Of a stretch of DNA of 64,000 nucleotides, positions 16,477 to 24,098 are shown piece by piece; positions within the stretch are counted from its first letter, which is position 1; every line of letters starts with the position of its first letter. A program made the position numbers and the translations under genes. This DNA is from Stygiobacter sp. RIFOXYC2_FULL_38_25 (GTDB taxonomy: Bacteria; Bacteroidota; Ignavibacteria; Ignavibacteriales; Melioribacteraceae), in assembly GCA_001803165.1 (NCBI GenBank), contig MHAZ01000019.1, positions 186,001 to 250,000 of the forward strand, read 5' to 3'. The notes under the pieces were generated by a model, which did not search any database, had not been told where the DNA came from, and was given only the letters and a program-made list of their open reading frames with translations.

Positions 16477-16550
16477 GGGGTCGTAGTTCAGTTGGTTAGA
16501 ACGCCTGCCTGTCACGCAGGAGGTCGCGAGTTCGAGTCTCGTCGGCCCCG
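16477..16550 (+). tRNA. tRNA-Asp (anticodon GTC)
   Basis: A complete cloverleaf is visible: a 7-bp acceptor stem (GGGGTCG with CGGCCCC), an anticodon stem CCTGC/GCAGG around the loop CTGTCAC with anticodon GTC, a T arm with GTTCGAGTC, and discriminator G as expected for Asp. CCA is not encoded. The integrase gene starts its 3' side 87 bp away, so this tRNA is the likely integration site of the mobile element. Confidence 0.95.
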
Positions 16551-16558
16551 CACAAGAT

Positions 16559-16637: not shown

Positions 16638-17591
16638 TTAAGACAGCATTTGAAGGTATAACTGAGTGGTCTTTAATTGGCTATGTCCTAGCTTTATCAT
16701 TATCTCAAAAAGAGGGATATTCTTCTTTGACAGTAGGCTTGCATATCTATGCCTCAGAGAGTGCCAACCCCAAACTTTCATTTTATTTTCCCGCAAGGTT
16801 TTGTCCAAAAATTTGGGGGTGTCATTCCATTCCGGGAATACTCTTCCCTTGCCGGTTAATCCTTTTATGCAATCCGGTATCTCGACCTTTCTAGGAACTC
16901 TGTCGCTATTCTTTGATTTCCTGGTATAGAGGATTAAATAGCTTTCATTGATATCCTCAAAGGACAAGTTTAACGCTTCATTAATTCTACAGCCAGATGC
17001 TAAAACAAAATCAAATAAAAGTTTTTGGCGTGGATTAAAATATTCTCTTACTTTATTTATCTCGCTATCCGGCGGAATATATTTCAACATTTTTTTTACT
17101 GAATAAGGTTTGATCTTCCTTGCGGGATTTCTGATTACCAAGTCATAGCTGTCTATAATATAGTTGAATAATGATTTGATATTCTTGAGGGCTGAGTTTA
17201 CCTGATAATTATCAACCTCATTTCTCTTCAGTTTTTCGGAATAGTCTAATAAGAAATCTTCAATCTCCTTTCTTGTGATTTCTCTAATTTCCTGATTCCC
17301 AATGAAGTCTGCAAAACGATTAAGGTGATATTCACTATCTTGCTTATGCTTATCGCTGTATTTGACGGACAGATATTTTAACCGGTCGTCAATTACCGAA
17401 CAGAGTAATAAAGGTTTGTCCTGCTTACCGAATCTTTTTTCCTCGTCTAGGTAATTATATTTTTCTCTTTCGGCTTGTTGCGCTTCCCTCTTGCTGTGGT
17501 AAATACATTTTGAATAATAGGTCTTACTATTGAAATCAAACTTATAGTAGAACCTAATACCTTTTCTGAGTTTCCTATAATAAGTTGCCAT
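16638..17591 (-). CDS. Tyrosine recombinase / integrase
   Basis: The 317-aa protein has a SAM-like core-binding domain (about residues 60-160) and a C-terminal catalytic domain with the tyrosine recombinase residues: Arg in ASGCRINEALNL, His-x-x-Arg in WHSLRHRYAS, His in KLGHS, and the nucleophile Tyr in TTQLYLQ close to the C-terminus. It integrates and excises the element at tRNA-Asp, which its 3' end faces. The N-terminus (YYRKLRKGIRFYYKFDFNSKTYY) resembles an arm-site DNA-binding domain. It is followed toward the element by a divergent excisionase-like gene. Confidence 0.92.
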   Translation of the reverse strand: MATYYRKLRKGIRFYYKFDFNSKTYYSKCIYHSKREAQQAEREKYNYLDEEKRFGKQDKPLLLCSVIDDRLKYLSVKYSDKHKQDSEYHLNRFADFIGNQEIREITRKEIEDFLLDYSEKLKRNEVDNYQVNSALKNIKSLFNYIIDSYDLVIRNPARKIKPYSVKKMLKYIPPDSEINKVREYFNPRQKLLFDFVLASGCRINEALNLSFEDINESYLILYTRKSKNSDRVPRKVEIPDCIKGLTGKGRVFPEWNDTPKFLDKTLRENKMKVWGWHSLRHRYASLLSKKNIPLFEIMIKLGHSQLKTTQLYLQMLS

Positions 17592-17717
17592 TGTTAAATC
17601 TCCTATAAATCGTTAAATTATTTTCGTGGAAAAATTAATAGGTATGTATGTGGTGGTTTTAGGTGTGCGACTATGTAAAACAAAAAAAGGAGGTTGGGGA
17701 GCATAGGAGTTAATCTT

Positions 17718-17894
17718 ATGGATACCCCGATTGAAGCCAAATTTTTCTCTGTTAAAGAGGTGGCTGTAATGCTTGGAAAGTGTAATAAGTGGGTTTATCA
17801 ACGAAAGGAGAAAATCCCTGGTTACACTAGAATTGCAGGAGCGATTTTGTTTAACAGAGAGGTTTTTCTGTCCGGACTTAGGCCTCGCAGTTAG
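17718..17894 (+). CDS. Excisionase/AlpA-like helix-turn-helix protein
   Basis: This 58-aa protein (MDTPIEAKFFSVKEVAVMLG start) has one MerR/excisionase-type winged helix: FFSVKEVAVMLGKCNKWVYQ then a basic wing region and ILFNREVFLSGL. The ATG at 17718 is chosen because AGGAG lies 9-13 nt upstream; an upstream in-frame start exists but has no ribosome site. It is divergent from the integrase, a usual arrangement for directionality factors, and probably controls excision or integrase expression. A generic HTH regulator is the alternative. Confidence 0.75.
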   Translation: MDTPIEAKFFSVKEVAVMLGKCNKWVYQRKEKIPGYTRIAGAILFNREVFLSGLRPRS

Positions 17895-17998
17895 CCTATT
17901 AAAAGCCAGTAGGTTGTAATGGCTTATTGGTTTAGACACCCCCCGGTGGTGTAATGCCACCGGGAAGTATTTCGCTGGCACATCTTGATTGCGCCGCA

Positions 17999-18193
17999 TT
18001 AAATCCAGCCTCTACTTTTAGCTCTTAGTTGTGCTATTTCAAATGACTTCTTGTTTTCAAACGCCGCCTGTTTAAGTTTGTACATTACCTTTTCGTAATC
18101 TCTGTCTCGGGGTTTGCGGTTGTTTGAATGCTTGTGTTTTTTAGGTGTGTAAAAAATCTGGTGGGCGATTTCTTGAAGTAATGTTCGTGCCAT
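17999..18193 (-). CDS. Small basic hypothetical protein
   Basis: The 64-aa protein is rich in Lys, Arg and His (YTPKKHKHSNNRKPRDRDYEK) with a helical C-terminal half. No family was recognised. A good ribosome site (AGAGG, 6-10 nt before ATG) supports it. It is read leftward from a likely promoter at 18414-18441, through a leader that holds three 10-bp repeats. A DNA- or RNA-binding role is possible from its charge but is only inference. Confidence 0.6.
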   Translation of the reverse strand: MARTLLQEIAHQIFYTPKKHKHSNNRKPRDRDYEKVMYKLKQAAFENKKSFEIAQLRAKSRGWI

Positions 18194-18246
18194 TTTATCC
18201 TCTGTTTAATTACAAAGGAAAACTATTTTATATGTTGTTAAAGGGC

Positions 18247-18276
18247 ATTGGAAACGATTGGAATTGATTGGAAGAT
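18247..18276. repeat. Three tandem 10-bp iterons
   Basis: ATTGGAAACG, ATTGGAATTG and ATTGGAAGAT follow each other with an exact 10-bp period, one helical turn, so the ATTGGAA boxes lie on one DNA face. The site is 54 bp upstream of the 64-aa gene and near the integrase/excisionase pair. It could bind an arm-site protein, an excisionase or a replication initiator. Confidence 0.6.
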
Positions 18277-18413
18277 AGTCTAAGAATTGTCTATAAATTC
18301 TTGTTGTCCGCTATTATTTGCTTAATAGTCTATAATAGCTCGCAATAGGGTTTACCGAATATCCTACGATTTAAGATTTTAGATTTGGTTGTAAGTAAAG
18401 CCTCTTATGTTTA

Positions 18414-18441
18414 ATTATACCACACTCTATTAAAAATTCAA
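18414..18441 (-). promoter_or_regulatory. Sigma70-like promoter, leftward
   Basis: On the minus strand TTGAAT and TATAAT are separated by 16 bp, with the extended box TGTGGTATAATTA that recurs at two other promoters of the element. It would drive the 64-aa gene. Confidence 0.6.
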
Positions 18442-18549
18442 TCTTCTTATTCTGATTACAAAATTATATTTCATAATAATATTTTACAGTTAAATAATAC
18501 TTTGCTCTTCCACTTATGCCCAATTATAACAAAAATATTTAGATGCTGT

Positions 18550-18577
18550 TTGACATGATCGCTTACTGTGGTATAAT
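18550..18577 (+). promoter_or_regulatory. Consensus sigma70 promoter, rightward (P1)
   Basis: TTGACA and TATAAT match the consensus in full with a 16-bp spacer and the TGTGGTATAATTA box. No reading frame follows. The transcript would begin with two tandem small hairpins, each GTCC-N15-GGAC, at about 18585-18634. Confidence 0.75.
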
Positions 18578-18648
18578 TAAATCAGTCCTCCAGCTAGAAT
18601 ATCGGACAAGTCCATATCTCCGGCTAACGGACTAGATAATCATAGCCC

Positions 18649-18677
18649 TTGACAAACAAAACGGTTAGGTGTAAAAT
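18649..18677 (+). promoter_or_regulatory. Consensus sigma70 promoter, rightward (P2)
   Basis: TTGACA, a 17-bp spacer and TAAAAT form a near-perfect promoter. Transcription would start near 18685, directly before the long structured segment, with no coding frame behind it. Confidence 0.75.
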
Positions 18678-18684
18678 AAAAGAG

Positions 18685-19137
18685 TAGTTTAAAATATAAG
18701 ACGGGGGAACAGAAAGCAGTATTATGAGCTAATCACTCATGCCCGTTGTTTGGCGTTCCCCCGTCGGCAGCGTGCAGATTAACTCAGAATATTGCTTTTT
18801 TTATTTACAATGAAGCCTGACTGCGTTTAGGAATTGGATAAATAGGCAGTCTTATAAAACTATTCCTTTAAATCCTGTGTGGTGGATAGATGAAAAAAGT
18901 GCCGGCAATGTTTTAACCTTAACAACCGGCGACCTGATTTATTCATCACACGATCGACAAAATAAATCCCGAATAAACAGACGCTTTTATAAGCGATAAA
19001 AATCATTGAATATTGCATCAATTGATTCTGGTGGGGAGACCCGAACATCTAGGGTGGGAAGTTATTAGTCGGAAAAAGGTTTCTACATAGAACAGCATAA
19101 TTAAATCCCTAAAGTATCAGGGAGTTAAAAGGTTTTT
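18685..19137 (+). ncRNA. Candidate large structured non-coding RNA
   Basis: About 450 nt without a supported gene lie behind promoter P2. Stems found by hand are an 11-bp perfect pairing 18700-18710 with 18755-18765 (GACGGGGGAAC/GTTCCCCCGTC) enclosing an ATGAG/CTCAT hairpin; GACTGC/GCAGTC at 18819-18851; GCCGG/CCGGC at 18902-18931; CGCTT/AAGCG at 18980-18993; a GGG-GAGA-CCC GNRA hairpin near 19033; and TCCCT/AGGGA at 19106-19123, followed by a T6 run that could end transcription. The next gene on this side is on the opposite strand, so this is not a leader. It resembles large ornate RNAs of phages and mobile elements in general form only; no named class was recognised. Confidence 0.5.
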
Positions 19138-19191
19138 TATGGATAATGTCTTAAGAAGTAGACTATCTTAGAAAAATTACTTGGAATAGAC

Positions 19192-19800
19192 TTAGCAACG
19201 CCTTTCGGGGTTTGAATAAACAATTTTCTTAATAATTATTTCAGCTTCTTTTTTCGGTGATTTTCCATTCTTCAACCAAAAATTAATATGTAGATGGGCC
19301 GTTTTAGGATTAACTAAAATATCGGTTGGTGAAATCCATTTCTTAATCAAGAGATCTGAACGAAATCCGTGTCCGTGATAGCTTTTGAAACTTATTAGAT
19401 CAGAATAGAATAATATTGTATGTGTTGAATAATCCCCTTGAAGATTCATTTTGAACCGTTTCGGTTTATGAGGCTGAACGGTATATAATGTTTCTTTATT
19501 ATGAAACTCGATGTCAATTTCTTTCTTATCATTTTCATAAATAAAGAGACCAACAACGATATTCTTATCTGAAAGCTCGACATTACTAGAAACATAAAAA
19601 TCATATTCTCCATACCTAATGGGATCTTCGGTAATAATCTCGGCACAATACCATTTGTCATCAATCTTATTAATTCTCAGATGTAAATTCCCTGCGCGGT
19701 CAACATAGACATTATTCTCGTTCCAATTATTACTTCCTGGTCCTTTGCCATTTCCACTTTTAATAATCCATTTCTGACCGGAGAATATAATTGTCTTCAT
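19192..19800 (-). CDS. GH16-like beta-glucanase-fold protein
   Basis: The 202-aa protein matches the concanavalin-like fold of glycoside hydrolase family 16. NNWNENNVYVDRAGNLHLRI near the N-terminus, YGEYDFYVSS in the middle, and the active-site strand KKEIDIEFHN carrying the ExDxE catalytic pattern of lichenase-type enzymes. The C-terminal strands include HLHINFWLKNG. Such enzymes cut beta-1,3/1,4-glucans. Oddly, it has no signal peptide, although family members normally act outside the cell. It is a lone cargo gene between the structured RNA region and a small regulatory-looking gene. Confidence 0.75.
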   Translation of the reverse strand: MKTIIFSGQKWIIKSGNGKGPGSNNWNENNVYVDRAGNLHLRINKIDDKWYCAEIITEDPIRYGEYDFYVSSNVELSDKNIVVGLFIYENDKKEIDIEFHNKETLYTVQPHKPKRFKMNLQGDYSTHTILFYSDLISFKSYHGHGFRSDLLIKKWISPTDILVNPKTAHLHINFWLKNGKSPKKEAEIIIKKIVYSNPERRC

Positions 19801-19940
19801 AAAGAAATTTAATAAATAATATTTTTGCCTCCTATAATCGGCAATCTTTTATATCAGGTAGTCGCAATACTTGTAAATACTCAATTATCTTCTAAATATT
19901 TACAATTTCTTCCATTTCATGTTTTCAACTACCTGGCTAA

Positions 19941-19958
19941 GTTTAGTCCACACTAAAC
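19941..19958. promoter_or_regulatory. Palindromic operator-like site
   Basis: GTTTAG-TCCACA-CTAAAC is a perfect 6-bp inverted repeat immediately before the AGGAG ribosome site of the 56-aa gene. It could be a repressor site or an RNA hairpin beside the start. Confidence 0.5.
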
Positions 19959-19968
19959 AGGAGTATAT

Positions 19969-20139
19969 ATGCCGGACTTAGCGCAAATGGCAAAAGCCGA
20001 ATATGACAACCTTATTAAACAACTTGAGACCAAGGAAAATGAGGTTGCCGATCTAAAAAAGAAAATACACCCGATTGGTATCTTTCTGAAAGAATCCGGT
20101 GTACTGGAAAAAGAGACCAGAAAACGGGAGAAAAAGTAG
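19969..20139 (+). CDS. Small coiled-coil protein (56 aa)
   Basis: The 56-residue frame begins MPDLAQMAKAEYDNLIKQLE and continues as a charged amphipathic helix (ENEVADLKKKI), a short hydrophobic turn (PIGIFLKESG) and a basic tail ending KREKK. It has an AGGAG site 6-10 nt before the ATG, an inverted repeat upstream, and a strong terminator after the stop, so it is a self-contained transcription unit. No family was recognised. A small regulator or phage-like accessory protein is a guess from its shape. Confidence 0.65.
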   Translation: MPDLAQMAKAEYDNLIKQLETKENEVADLKKKIHPIGIFLKESGVLEKETRKREKK

Positions 20140-20163
20140 GGGTTTATTTGCCCTAGGACAGCA

Positions 20164-20206
20164 AAAAAGGCTCAAACTGGTACTTTATACCTTTTTGAGC
20201 CTTTTT
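20164..20206 (+). terminator. Rho-independent terminator
   Basis: A 13-bp stem (AAAAAGGCTCAAA with TTTGAGCCTTTTT) is followed by more T. It closes the 56-aa gene's transcript. Confidence 0.85.
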
Positions 20207-20631
20207 CTTCGTCTAGTAGGCTAATTTCAAGGATTTTTAAGCATAAAATGGGTGTTCTAGACAATAGAAGAAGTTGCTTGCCTCTTTTTTCCCACTTTTA
20301 ACATTTTCCTTCAAGTTTGAACAGCTTATATATTTTTTGGCGTGCATTTCGATTATGTAATGAAGCATGAACTTTATTATAAATCGGTCTTGGTGGTTAT
20401 GTTGTTGGCAGAACTGGTGAGAAGATTGTTGAGAAGATTAGGAAATGATTTGTAATTGGCAATTATCCAAATTAGTTTTCAAAAATATGTGGAAATAATG
20501 AGTATATGAAAAGATAAACTAGTCTGGGAACCGATTGAAAAAATAATTATTATGAAAGTGTTTCCAATTATGTAAATTGACAGTACGAAATAATATTCGC
20601 ATGTTATATTAATAAAGAAATCAGAACTAGT
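20207..20631. other. Intergenic region before the IetA-like gene
   Basis: About 425 bp without a supported gene. It is A/T-rich and must hold the promoter of the AAA ATPase gene at 20632, but I found no convincing -35/-10 pair or repeat in it. Confidence 0.5.
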
Positions 20632-21657
20632 ATGACTCAGTTTAGTTACATAAAAGAAATAGTTAAATCCGGTTTGGAAAATGATCAAGAAAAATTCAAG
20701 GAAGCTTTGAATGAATTGATTGAGCATTCCAAAAAAACAAAAAAGATTAACTATGCATTACAGCTACAGTCTTTGCTTAAAGATGCCATTAGACAAGAGC
20801 AATCCAAAGGACCTAAGTTAGTTGGCAGCCACGCGTATTTTGCCAGATTGGAAGACAAAGAACTAAACGATTTTGTATTAGAAAAAATTACTTCGGAGTA
20901 TAAGTTTGAAAATCTGATTGTGAGTGATGAGGTTCAGAATCAGCTAGAGTTTTTAATTGACGAACATAGATCAAAAGAATTAATTCAGAAATTTAATTTA
21001 CCAGTTTCGAACAAAGTATTATTATATGGTCCTTCTGGTTGTGGGAAAACTCTTGCTTCTTATGTTATTGCTGGTGAGTTAGAAAAAATGATGTATGTTA
21101 TAAATCTCGGAGCTATAGTATCTTCAAAACTTGGTGAAACTAGTAAAAATTTAGCGAAGGTTTTTAGACAAGCATCAATGGAAGACTGCATAATTTTTAT
21201 TGATGAATTTGATTCATTAGGAAAAGTTAGAGATTATGCTCATGATCATGGGGAGATGAAAAGGATTGTTAATACGATTCTTCAATTGTTTGATTATTTA
21301 CCTCAAAGCAGTATTGTTATTGCAGCAACCAATCAGATAGAAATGATTGACAATGCATTATTGAGAAGATTTGATGTAAAACTTAAACTTGATCTTCCAA
21401 ATAAAAAGCAAATTAAAGAACTAATAGAACTTGTACTAAGAAATGGTGAATTTAAGTTTGACAAAATAAATGCAATTACAACAGTTCTTAAAGCTGCCGA
21501 AGGTTTATCATATTACAGCATTCAAAAAGCTTTAATAGGAGCTATTAAAAGAAGTATCCTTGATAAAAATATTACTAAAAATAAGAATGGATTATTAATT
21601 ACATCGTCCATCTGGTTGGATCTTATTAAACAAGAAAAAGAGAAAATTACGAATTAA
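20632..21657 (+). CDS. ietA: AAA+ ATPase, IetA-like defence component
   Basis: The 341-aa protein has a helical N-terminal region (about residues 1-95) and one AAA+ domain: Walker A GPSGCGKT at about 133-140, Walker B CIIFIDEFDSL at about 186-196, sensor 1 AATNQIE and an LLRRFD arginine-finger segment. Size and pairing with a subtilase of 814 aa match IetA/IetS, first seen as a plasmid incompatibility locus and later shown to protect against phage. The ATPase is thought to sense or remodel a target and license the protease. Here the two genes are tail to tail, not in tandem, and their stop codons overlap. Confidence 0.8.
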   Translation: MTQFSYIKEIVKSGLENDQEKFKEALNELIEHSKKTKKINYALQLQSLLKDAIRQEQSKGPKLVGSHAYFARLEDKELNDFVLEKITSEYKFENLIVSDEVQNQLEFLIDEHRSKELIQKFNLPVSNKVLLYGPSGCGKTLASYVIAGELEKMMYVINLGAIVSSKLGETSKNLAKVFRQASMEDCIIFIDEFDSLGKVRDYAHDHGEMKRIVNTILQLFDYLPQSSIVIAATNQIEMIDNALLRRFDVKLKLDLPNKKQIKELIELVLRNGEFKFDKINAITTVLKAAEGLSYYSIQKALIGAIKRSILDKNITKNKNGLLITSSIWLDLIKQEKEKITN

Positions 21658-24098
21658 TTCTCCAATTCAGCTTCAAGCTCCGCGATTACTTCTAGATTAT
21701 TTATTAAAATCAGTTCATTATACAATCTATTTGAAACAGCGCCCTTGTGCGACATTTCTTTTACTGTAATTACTAAAGAAAATTTGTGTAAAATATTATA
21801 GTCGTCTTGCAAATGAGCCGGTAACAATTTATGAAGCTTCGAATGAATTGCTATCTTAAACTGATTATTCTCTTTGAGTAATTTATTCTTAGTAATCCCA
21901 AAACTCATTTTATGACAATTACTCAAAAGTTTTGCTTTGAAGTAGTAATCTTCTGACCATCCTTGAAAGACTTTAAAATCTTCAACTCTAGCACCACTTA
22001 AGCCAAAGTTTTCTTCCTTTCCTTTATCATTTAAGCGTTTTTCTTCAAGAGCGATATCTTTAAATATACCAAAGGAGATATGAACCGGGCAATAAGCAAG
22101 GTGATTGTGAGGGATGGGCTCAAAACTAAAACAAAGGGTTGCATCAATATGGACTACTGATTTACCATGTAAAAGCGTAACAAGATATTCCGGAAGTTTC
22201 AAGGTATATGTTTTTATATGTCCAGGTTTTATTGAATCTTCTAAAACAAGAGTTACATTATTTTCATCAGAATAAATCGGAAGATTATCATCGGGTATTC
22301 CTTTCCCAATAAGGTCTTGTAATTTGAAGTGCTCAAGATTCTTAAATGCTTTGCCAGTTTGTGGATGTTCCGCGGAGTTAACTAAAAGAGCTTTTATTGT
22401 TTGCATATTTTCAGCAAGTTGAGGATACTCCTTTAAAATTTTTGCTGCAAGATTTGCGAGAAATGGTGCGGAATAACTTGTGCCGATTTCCCTTGAATAA
22501 TACTGACCCATTTCAGCACTAAGAACTTTAAGACCAGTATTATCAGTTAGAGTATTATTATCAATATCGCCTCCAAAATAACATAGATCCGGTTTAGTTA
22601 GATGTTTACTAAAGCGAGTTGATTTATAATATGAGGCAGAGCGATCGCAATTAAACTTACGCGTATAACTTGCAGGGAATGAACTTTCAGCTGAATAGCA
22701 TTCAGCGCTATATGGTTCCAGATTATCAGAAATTGCACCACAACCAATATTATTCATACTTTCTGATGGAGAACGAAGATTAAAGTCTGGCTTAAGAAAT
22801 TGATGAGGGTAAATGCCTTTGTTTTCATTATCAAAGAAGTGACCAACAAAATTTGTGAAGTTACCTACAGATATAAATATTAGGATATTCAATTCATTGG
22901 ATAATGAATCAAGAGTACAAGCATAATTGGAAACGAGCGAATTATTTGGAAGAGGATTACAATAACCAAGAGACAGGACAAATATTTTTATACCATATTT
23001 TTGATGCGATTCTTTAATCATACTAATTACTAGCGATTCTGAAATGTATCCTTCTTCCCTATCGAGGACTTTTATTGATAAGAGTTTTGCATCCGCGATG
23101 ATTTGATTAGATGAAGAATTATATAATGACTTACCTAGAGCCGCAATTGCGGAGACACCTGTACCATGATTAGCACTGTCTATTTTAGGACTAGTGCCAG
23201 TAATATCGAATTCATTCCCGTCATTTATAATTAGAGGGGCAAGCGGTGTCGCACTGCTGATACCAGTATCAATTATTCCAATAATCGGTAAATCTTCAGC
23301 TCCATTTGCGATTGCAAAACCATACTCTCTAATAGGAAGGTTGAATACAGATGGCCTTATGATACCTGCAAAAGGAGAATTAACTATATGGATTACATCA
23401 TAGTTGTCAACAATTTCTTGAATAGTAACAAACGGGACATTTAGCAATTCAATTCTGTTTGATGAAACGTCTTGAATAAAATTCAAGCCATTTGAAGAAC
23501 AATAATCAATTAGCGAGCTTTTTATTGCTGAAAGCTGAGGGTATAATTCAAGTGACTCAAAGAGATCAAGTATGTAGTAATCTTTTGGTTCAGCAATTTT
23601 TTTTATGTCATCTGATGAATGAAAATCGAAGCGTTTTATATAGCGGATTAACCGGTTGTAATCCTCCGAATCATCAGGATTTACTGAATTAATAAACACA
23701 TTAATGCTATCAATAAATTCTTGAAACTTTTCTTCGTTACTGATAGCATAGTAGCCAATAGTATTAAACTCATCATATCTAATTGGACTTAAGCCGAAAT
23801 ATTCTCTGTATTTGTTTTCATATTTTGATGAATCAAAATAATCGAAGAAGTTTAGAATTATGTAATCAACTTTTGCAGGTATATTTAATTGAAGATTGCG
23901 ATGAGTTTCTCTTTGATTTCTTTTTGTTGTGAAATTAGTTAATGAATATCTGAATGATTCTTGCATGAGCAAATAATTTCTAGGAACAATTTCAATTGGC
24001 TCATCAGCGCCTTCATCATCACCGACTTTCCTTTGATGAGGTTTATATGTGACAACACCTTCAACAGGATTTCTAAAATATAAGTGAGGTTTTTTCAT
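21654..24098 (-). CDS. ietS: Subtilisin-like serine protease, IetS-like defence effector
   Basis: The 814-aa protein has a long N-terminal region of about 265 residues, then an S8 peptidase domain with all three catalytic motifs: Asp in IGIIDTG (about residue 277), His in NHGTGVS (about 311) and Ser in GTSYSAPF (about 541). A beta-rich C-terminal region follows. There is no signal peptide, so it works in the cytoplasm. Its partner is the convergent AAA ATPase. The triad is intact, so the effector should be active. The gene converges on ietA with a 4-bp overlap at a TTAA that supplies both stop codons. Confidence 0.82.
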   Translation of the reverse strand: MKKPHLYFRNPVEGVVTYKPHQRKVGDDEGADEPIEIVPRNYLLMQESFRYSLTNFTTKRNQRETHRNLQLNIPAKVDYIILNFFDYFDSSKYENKYREYFGLSPIRYDEFNTIGYYAISNEEKFQEFIDSINVFINSVNPDDSEDYNRLIRYIKRFDFHSSDDIKKIAEPKDYYILDLFESLELYPQLSAIKSSLIDYCSSNGLNFIQDVSSNRIELLNVPFVTIQEIVDNYDVIHIVNSPFAGIIRPSVFNLPIREYGFAIANGAEDLPIIGIIDTGISSATPLAPLIINDGNEFDITGTSPKIDSANHGTGVSAIAALGKSLYNSSSNQIIADAKLLSIKVLDREEGYISESLVISMIKESHQKYGIKIFVLSLGYCNPLPNNSLVSNYACTLDSLSNELNILIFISVGNFTNFVGHFFDNENKGIYPHQFLKPDFNLRSPSESMNNIGCGAISDNLEPYSAECYSAESSFPASYTRKFNCDRSASYYKSTRFSKHLTKPDLCYFGGDIDNNTLTDNTGLKVLSAEMGQYYSREIGTSYSAPFLANLAAKILKEYPQLAENMQTIKALLVNSAEHPQTGKAFKNLEHFKLQDLIGKGIPDDNLPIYSDENNVTLVLEDSIKPGHIKTYTLKLPEYLVTLLHGKSVVHIDATLCFSFEPIPHNHLAYCPVHISFGIFKDIALEEKRLNDKGKEENFGLSGARVEDFKVFQGWSEDYYFKAKLLSNCHKMSFGITKNKLLKENNQFKIAIHSKLHKLLPAHLQDDYNILHKFSLVITVKEMSHKGAVSNRLYNELILINNLEVIAELEAELEN

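Follow-up and report, generated by a model that had tools for sequence, protein, structure and literature searches.

Plasmids of the pT181 type carry a terminator in the leader of the replication gene and use an antisense RNA, and in the put antiterminator RNA of phage HK022 promoter-proximal hairpins precede a terminator. OLE, GOLLD, ROOL and HEARO are large ornate non-coding structured RNAs, some of them found in phages or mobile elements, and their classes are represented in Rfam. The systems closest to the locus described here belong to a phage satellite and a prophage. In the sections of PMC4825925 that deal with it, the P4 CI RNA is described as halting expression of the phage replication genes by premature termination; the P4 CI RNA/seqA leader appears there as a phage-satellite leader with termination ahead of the replication genes and complementary leader segments, a layout that the RNA analyzed here recalls. 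IsrK, from prophage Gifsy-1, has its own promoter, a short form that ends at a Rho-independent terminator, readthrough to a small ORF and a phage gene, and alternative structures, and it controls an antirepressor gene (PMC4825925, sections on IsrK).

We analyzed a locus within a 64-kb window (the whole stretch of DNA under study, 64,000 nucleotides). Its center is a core RNA of about 120 nt, a conserved and covarying RNA without an Rfam match that looks like a self-terminating phage leader. Like IsrK, as far as those sections of PMC4825925 describe it, the core has its own promoter, a terminator-like end of its short form and alternative structures, all of them predicted; unlike IsrK, to which no sequence relation was seen, it lies in a window without a nearby co-directional backbone gene. 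The core differs from the P4 CI/seqA leader in having one long cis helix that crosses an outer helix and runs into a T-run (T7), and no relation between the two was seen by sequence or Rfam, descent having been compared through Rfam scans only. The likeness to pT181 lies in a leader terminator ahead of a replication gene. However, no promoter-like site reads against the window core: a sigma-70-type scan of the minus strand from 18684 to 19600 gave none at its threshold. In contrast to OLE, GOLLD, ROOL and HEARO, no Rfam 15 model matches and the covarying core is compact. In contrast to leader-peptide attenuators, a short ORF spanning the structure is absent from all four core RNAs (the window and its relatives G008, G078 and L050). 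A likeness to HK022 put, with the hairpin that we call module A as the promoter-proximal hairpin before the terminator, is only an idea.

The initial annotation of this segment had proposed two sigma-70 promoters ahead of structured RNA, and its observations as a whole were borne out. Promoter 1 (18550-18577, plus strand; TTGACA-16-TATAAT with an extended -10 TG) agrees with the consensus at 12/12 positions and promoter 2 (18649-18677, plus strand; TTGACA-17-TAAAAT) at 11/12, and they were the best two in a 3-kb scan. Since that scan contained an ordinary number of promoter-like sites (14, versus 11.6 +/- 3.4 from shuffles), only the quality of these two stands out. The segment was also said to hold no supported gene; the sole ORF of at least 60 aa in 18550-19138 is a 62-aa minus-strand frame (18860-19048). 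As three of its five substitutions relative to G008 change the residue, this frame does not look like a protein. No conserved protein frame across the segment was found, and on ORF content and the substitution pattern against G008 we rejected protein coding of 18550-19138. The segment contains no tRNA or tmRNA, the one tRNA of the window lying outside it. Together with the covariation described below, these data support a structured RNA behind strong promoters inside a mobile element.

The core RNA (18684-18802, plus strand) is marked out by matches of two models, R1 and R2, in relatives and by covariation. Its start, placed from promoter 2, would be at 18684, for an expected length of about 120 nt. 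The 5' strand of the outer helix P1 (18700-18710, GACGGGGGAAC) pairs with 18755-18765, and this helix is the 11-bp perfect outer helix with a nested hairpin that had been noted before and that is present in the minimum free energy (MFE) structure. Overlooked at that time was a long-range helix, P4, inside the segment. The 5' strand of P4 (18713-18734) lies within the P1 loop and pairs at 20/22 positions with 18777-18798, so that the 22-nt P4 crosses P1 in a pseudoknot topology, with the P1 3' strand in turn within the P4 loop. The P4 3' strand overlaps T7 (18796-18802), and by sequence and by detector score 18777-18802 forms a terminator-like end. A third helix, the P2 hairpin (18724-18740, plus strand; ATGAG-loop-CTCAT, 18724-18728/18736-18740), forms when the unfinished window RNA is folded; since its 5' strand is shared with upper P4, P2 and upper P4 are mutually exclusive. 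A detector for the P1/P4/T-run arrangement, run on both strands of the window, gave the core the best score, 70, with the next at 46.5, and none of 400 shuffles of the stretch reached 70. In terms of sequence features, the locus has a promoter followed by a structured leader that ends in a stem and a T-run.

Homologues were sought at several taxonomic depths. A 573-bp DNA query against 164 genomes of the order gave four matches, namely the genome's own copy, G103 (100%), G008 (95%) and G078 (76%, core only). By the R1 and R2 models, core homologues occur in the ignavibacterial genomes G008, G103 and G078 and in one viral contig, L050/L053. L050 was reached through an integrase alignment; a model without P1 matches its core (51 bits, E 1.6e-10), though L050 has a perfect 9-bp P1 of its own. 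R1 matched one of 395 genomes of the phylum and three of 391 genomes of the class, all of them already-known copies, so the family is rare in the genomes searched; R2 likewise returned only known copies, in four of the 164 order genomes. Pattern scans led to the same set. R1 confirmed none of the seven viral contigs from one scan and, from another viral scan, one of two (L053, the same contig as L050). A scan of genome contigs gave twelve, of which nine were not confirmed and three were (L056, L059 and L065); these are presumably the same copies as G008, G103 and G078. BLASTN of the segment found only two pieces (25 and 38 nt, E 0.2-0.6) in phages and no match in plasmids. The Rfam 15 scan that the initial annotation had suggested returned only the tRNA for the 64-kb window at the gathering cut-off. 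At E<=10, positions 17900-20500 gave four matches, all below cut-off and none convincing, and fourteen relative loci gave two tRNAs and nothing else. The absence of a named class thus holds for Rfam 15 families, and we assert membership in no named family. The core RNA did not surface in a search of open-licence PubMed Central papers on such RNAs, and an earlier listing in large motif surveys is possible. Two separate observations concern these relatives. G103, whose genome belongs to a different family, matches the element at 99.96% identity over 12 kb (L027 1-12000), which reflects either very recent transfer or a binning error. Behind the viral core, L050 6503-6457 (minus strand) shows by eye a stem of 7 bp like that of a tRNA acceptor and a hairpin resembling a T arm (loop TTCAACT), for which Rfam gives no tRNA match.

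Covariation was assessed in a structure-blind MAFFT alignment of the four distinct cores, and as two of the rows are about 97% alike it rests on about three independent sequences. In P4, 98.8% of the cells of its 20 pairs were paired and 7/20 pairs had changed on both sides, whereas slid registers gave 0-1 double-changed pairs; among 500 shuffles none was as high on four measures and 11 were on a fifth. Some of the kept pairs are G-U. For P1 and P4 together in three sequences, 4/29 pairs had changed on both sides versus 0 in slid registers, and 4/500 shuffles were as high on four measures and 174/500 on the fifth. Between the window and G078, two of ten counted P1 pairs had changed on both sides, while the perfect 9-bp helix of L050 is a different P1 whose register MAFFT did not align. 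P2 is the weakest helix of the core: one of its pairs is broken in G008 and its register is shifted in G078, and L050 has a covarying counterpart (ATGGA/TCCAT). The covariation asked for when the segment was first annotated is therefore present in the core. Of the proposed large ornate mobile-element RNA, the structured RNA stands, but the part shown to covary is the compact core of about 120 nt with its own T7.

The same topology recurs, with other letters, in front of phage genes. In G112, a prophage-like locus of the same order, a P1/P4/T7 structure lies directly before a Phage_rep_O gene, and by eye the corresponding place also holds two promoter-like sequences and a module-A-like hairpin. 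The integrase and the 64-aa protein of G112 are related to those of the window (49% and 56%), and the leader is correspondingly placed. A comparable but less pronounced layout precedes a gene of unknown family in L068 (integrase 41%). The helices there were chosen with the detector and by visual inspection, and as the wider version of the detector favors a different P1, we consider the locus weak; searching with the gene downstream returned only L068 itself. R1 and R2 match neither G112 nor L068, so that topology and place are common to these loci and sequence is not. We then took viral Rep-O loci, of which 57 were found and 56 used (L117 was dropped because its upstream region was too short), with the start of rep set at the first matched residue, in several loci residue 7 of the query. 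A score of at least 50 with a T-run within 70 nt of the start was found in 8/56 loci (seven distinct, as L127 and L131 carry an identical leader), versus 0.05 expected from shuffles and 5/784 real control stretches; 48/56 loci scored below 50. At a score of at least 44 the count was 10/56, versus 0.5 expected and 10/784 control stretches. Rep-O relatives occurred in 10/341 genomes, where only the locus of G112 scored at least 44. Since scores of at least 50 also occur at unrelated places (L046, L050 11455, L069 and L149), the detector score alone is not proof. In the integrase-linked remnant of G228 (L149), for example, the candidate scored 47.5 and a site elsewhere in the locus 53.0.

The likeness between the core and the Rep-O leaders may be convergent, the Rep-O leaders being translation-coupled attenuators with a leader ORF and the core something else. 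This concerns only the link between the two and is compatible with every other reading below; we regard it as a serious possibility, if clearly short of an even one. Core and Rep-O leaders have no sequence similarity, and the four core RNAs lack the spanning ORF that is present in G112 and in 7/12 viral Rep-O leaders scoring at least 42 (6/11 distinct); with the helices chosen in L068 none was found there. An ORF of 25-60 codons ending between -30 and +50 nt of the rep start was likewise more frequent in loci scoring at least 44 (8/10, versus 17/46 of the others; p 0.017), a difference that at a score of 50 becomes 6/8 versus 19/48 (p 0.12). Against convergence stands G112, of the same order and with its related integrase, 64-aa protein and correspondingly placed leader. 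In L102, L104, L106, L127 and L046 the pseudoknot upstream of rep is spanned by a leader ORF 31-40 codons long whose end lies no more than 8 nt from the start of rep; these leaders are candidate translation-coupled attenuators.

The order in which the helices could form was examined by folding seven RNAs (window, G078, L050, G112, L102, L096 and L104). Because strong P1 and P4 helices were the ground for choosing them, the fold order partly reflects that selection. When folded up to the start of the P4 3' strand, P1 was complete in 7/7; when the RNA ended at the T-run, the MFE structure had P4 without P1 in 6/7, with a near tie in G078. The MFE structure of the full 573-nt stretch retained P1 and P2 and not P4. 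These computed folds of unfinished and T-run-ended RNAs suggest that P1 forms first and that P4 invades its loop near T7, and in these models the core looks like a co-transcriptional switch. Our preferred reading, which we hold tentatively and at slightly under an even chance, is that the core represents a new family of phage-type self-terminating leader or attenuator RNAs that work like P4 CI RNA or IsrK. Transcription starting at promoter 2, or at promoter 1 and running through module A, would yield an RNA that folds P1 first, with P2 in its loop. The emerging P4 3' strand would then pair back into the P1 loop, forming the T7 terminator, with GAUUA and the P2 loop CUAAUC as the possible site of nucleation. 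Many transcripts would end as an RNA of about 120 nt and a regulated fraction would read on, with P1 a possible state of the readthrough RNA. Such a timed terminator could be tuned by whatever holds P1/P2 or frees the P4 strand. In related phages a short operon, and in some of them the replication operon, would be under the control of the switch.

The surroundings of the RNA agree with the mobile-element setting first proposed for it. A tRNA-Asp (16477-16551) adjoins a tyrosine integrase (16638-17591, minus strand; Phage_integrase, 5.5e-13), followed by an HTH_17-like protein, possibly an excisionase (17694-17894, plus strand; match below the curated cut-off), and by the 64-aa backbone protein that marks the element family (17999-18193, minus strand). 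The element begins at the tRNA-Asp and reaches about 40.0 kb, the point where G008 ceases to match; it also has ERF, RadC, ArdC-like and replication-relaxation-like genes, and three of these stretches recur in the viral contig L051/L067. A Pfam scan covering 20 proteins of the window recognized no virion gene, tblastn of the integrase gave no match in phages, and at the far end of the element a search for an attachment-site repeat yielded only a 12-bp inverted match. We read the element as a phage-related, defence-carrying island. In the window 20632-24098, a convergent IetA-like AAA ATPase and IetS-like subtilase (PADLOC models) form an Ietas-like cargo near the RNA, and the same slot in G008 (L022 2801-9251) is occupied by Gabija (GajA, GajB) together with a PtuA-type ATPase, which marks this position next to the RNA as a slot for defence cargo. 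An insertion that separates the integrase module from promoter 1 in G008 carries an additional 106-aa ORF (L022 10111-10431).

Immediately downstream, the window lacks a co-directional backbone gene before position 19969, and an inverted gene intervenes. The claim that the RNA is not a leader, made because the gene on the far side reads the other way, holds only locally: co-directional ORFs, unnoticed earlier, follow the RNA in G078 and L050, so that a same-strand gene it could regulate is seen in the loci of relatives and is not adjacent here. The first co-directional backbone gene in the window, a 56-aa gene identified by its translation and relatives (19969-20139, plus strand), lies beyond the cargo. 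Related genes are present in G008 and G112, and the L051/L067 contig is 70% identical to it at the DNA level; in G112 and L051/L067 it recurs behind the RNA or at the counterpart place. This recurrence points to an operon, led by the RNA, that cargo has interrupted. On this island inverted cargo separates the RNA from its co-directional backbone gene, and the RNA is retained. The nearest cargo gene reads against the RNA in both the window and G008, and the RNA has been kept in both despite the differing cargo behind it. That it is kept though inverted defence cargo follows suggests that it acts either on its own tail or in trans, for example by providing immunity to, or copy control over, related elements. 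A broader proposal, which we consider somewhat unlikely, is that the core represents an undescribed phage RNA switch, fluid in sequence and conserved in topology (P1 crossed by the terminator helix P4), that controls replication, or small operons, across temperate phages unrelated to one another. In phage-related islands with defence genes it would have lost its operon and persisted as an RNA acting in trans, for example in immunity against related phages or in timing with them. The locus adds a covariation-supported RNA without an Rfam 15 match from phage-related elements of little-studied bacteria. It also draws attention to a terminator of pseudoknot topology that recurs immediately before some phage replication genes, and it offers a concrete candidate for how RNA might control phage replication and for the way in which phage-related defence islands retain ancestral regulatory parts.

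The retention beside changing cargo would also suit a stand-alone regulatory sRNA of lysogenic conversion, with its own promoters and terminator, that pairs with transcripts of the host or of rival phages and whose place before genes is incidental. The near-consensus promoters and the T7 at the end of P4 agree with it, as does the persistence of the RNA in the window and G008 next to differing, opposing cargo. However, co-directional ORFs follow in G078, L050, G112 and L068, and a terminated sRNA leaves unexplained why the tail past T7 is conserved like the core; we judge this explanation unlikely. The tail (18803-19138, plus strand) is a structured, conserved, non-coding, T6-ended region that folds better than its shuffles (z -3.04, 2/100 as low) and is identical to G008 at 319/330 sites. 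Core and tail together differ from G008 at 14 of 452 sites, being about 97% identical with the tail conserved as much as the core, versus 31/318 differences at integrase third codon positions (p 1.4e-4). The similar block stops at about the last T-run, and upstream of promoter 1 the copies diverge through substitutions and the large insertion in G008. Just past the conserved block, the window has a minus-strand gene (19192-19800) with weak GH16 similarity below cut-off.

Could the whole stretch be one large structured RNA of about 560 nt with a single function, the P1/P4 core being one of its domains? As a unit, 18578-19150 has an MFE of -155.2 (z -4.46, 0/100 shuffles as low) that retains P1 and many stems, and taken separately, module A (z -2.74), the core (z -3.49) and the tail are all more stable than their shuffles. 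The equal conservation of core and tail against G008 points in the same direction. Nonetheless, T7 and the second promoter lie inside such an RNA, the core occurs in G078 and L050 without a recognizable module A or tail, covariation was seen in the core only, and the module A region (18578-18648) is identical to G008 at only 64/71 sites. We therefore consider a single large RNA decidedly improbable, and of the initial interpretation the structured mobile-element RNA is supported, while one large ornate RNA and the blanket exclusion of a leader lack support in the form proposed. Module A itself (18581-18637, plus strand) is a nested hairpin that would lie close to the 5' end of a promoter-1 transcript (fold -17.5; 2/200 shuffles as low), and its weak sequence match to the corresponding place in G112 was equaled by 4/300 shuffles. 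A purely DNA-level feature, in which interleaved inverted repeats serve a recombinase or replication initiator, draws on the nearby integrase and on the fact that Rep-O proteins bind origins, but the strand-specific layout, with a promoter upstream and a T-run downstream, and the G-U pairs kept in P4 make it very improbable.

Two further structures had been described in the tail. The GNRA-capped stem, GGG-GAGA-CCC at 19033-19042, is present in the MFE structure, and its loop in G008 is GGGA. Of the terminal hairpin followed by T6, both parts exist (19106-19123 and 19133-19138), but a 9-nt gap separates them and T6 is partly paired in the MFE structure; a terminator scan gave no plus-strand site. 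No convincing homologue of the tail was found beyond G008 and G103. The L051/L067 contig, in which neither R1 nor the detector finds a core, was the only contig recovered by a motif scan built on the match between the tail and L051. At the corresponding place of this virus of the group, L051 5660-5390 (minus strand) appears by eye to be a different non-coding stretch, with a short piece like window 19024-19050 whose best alignment was equaled by 9/300 shuffles.
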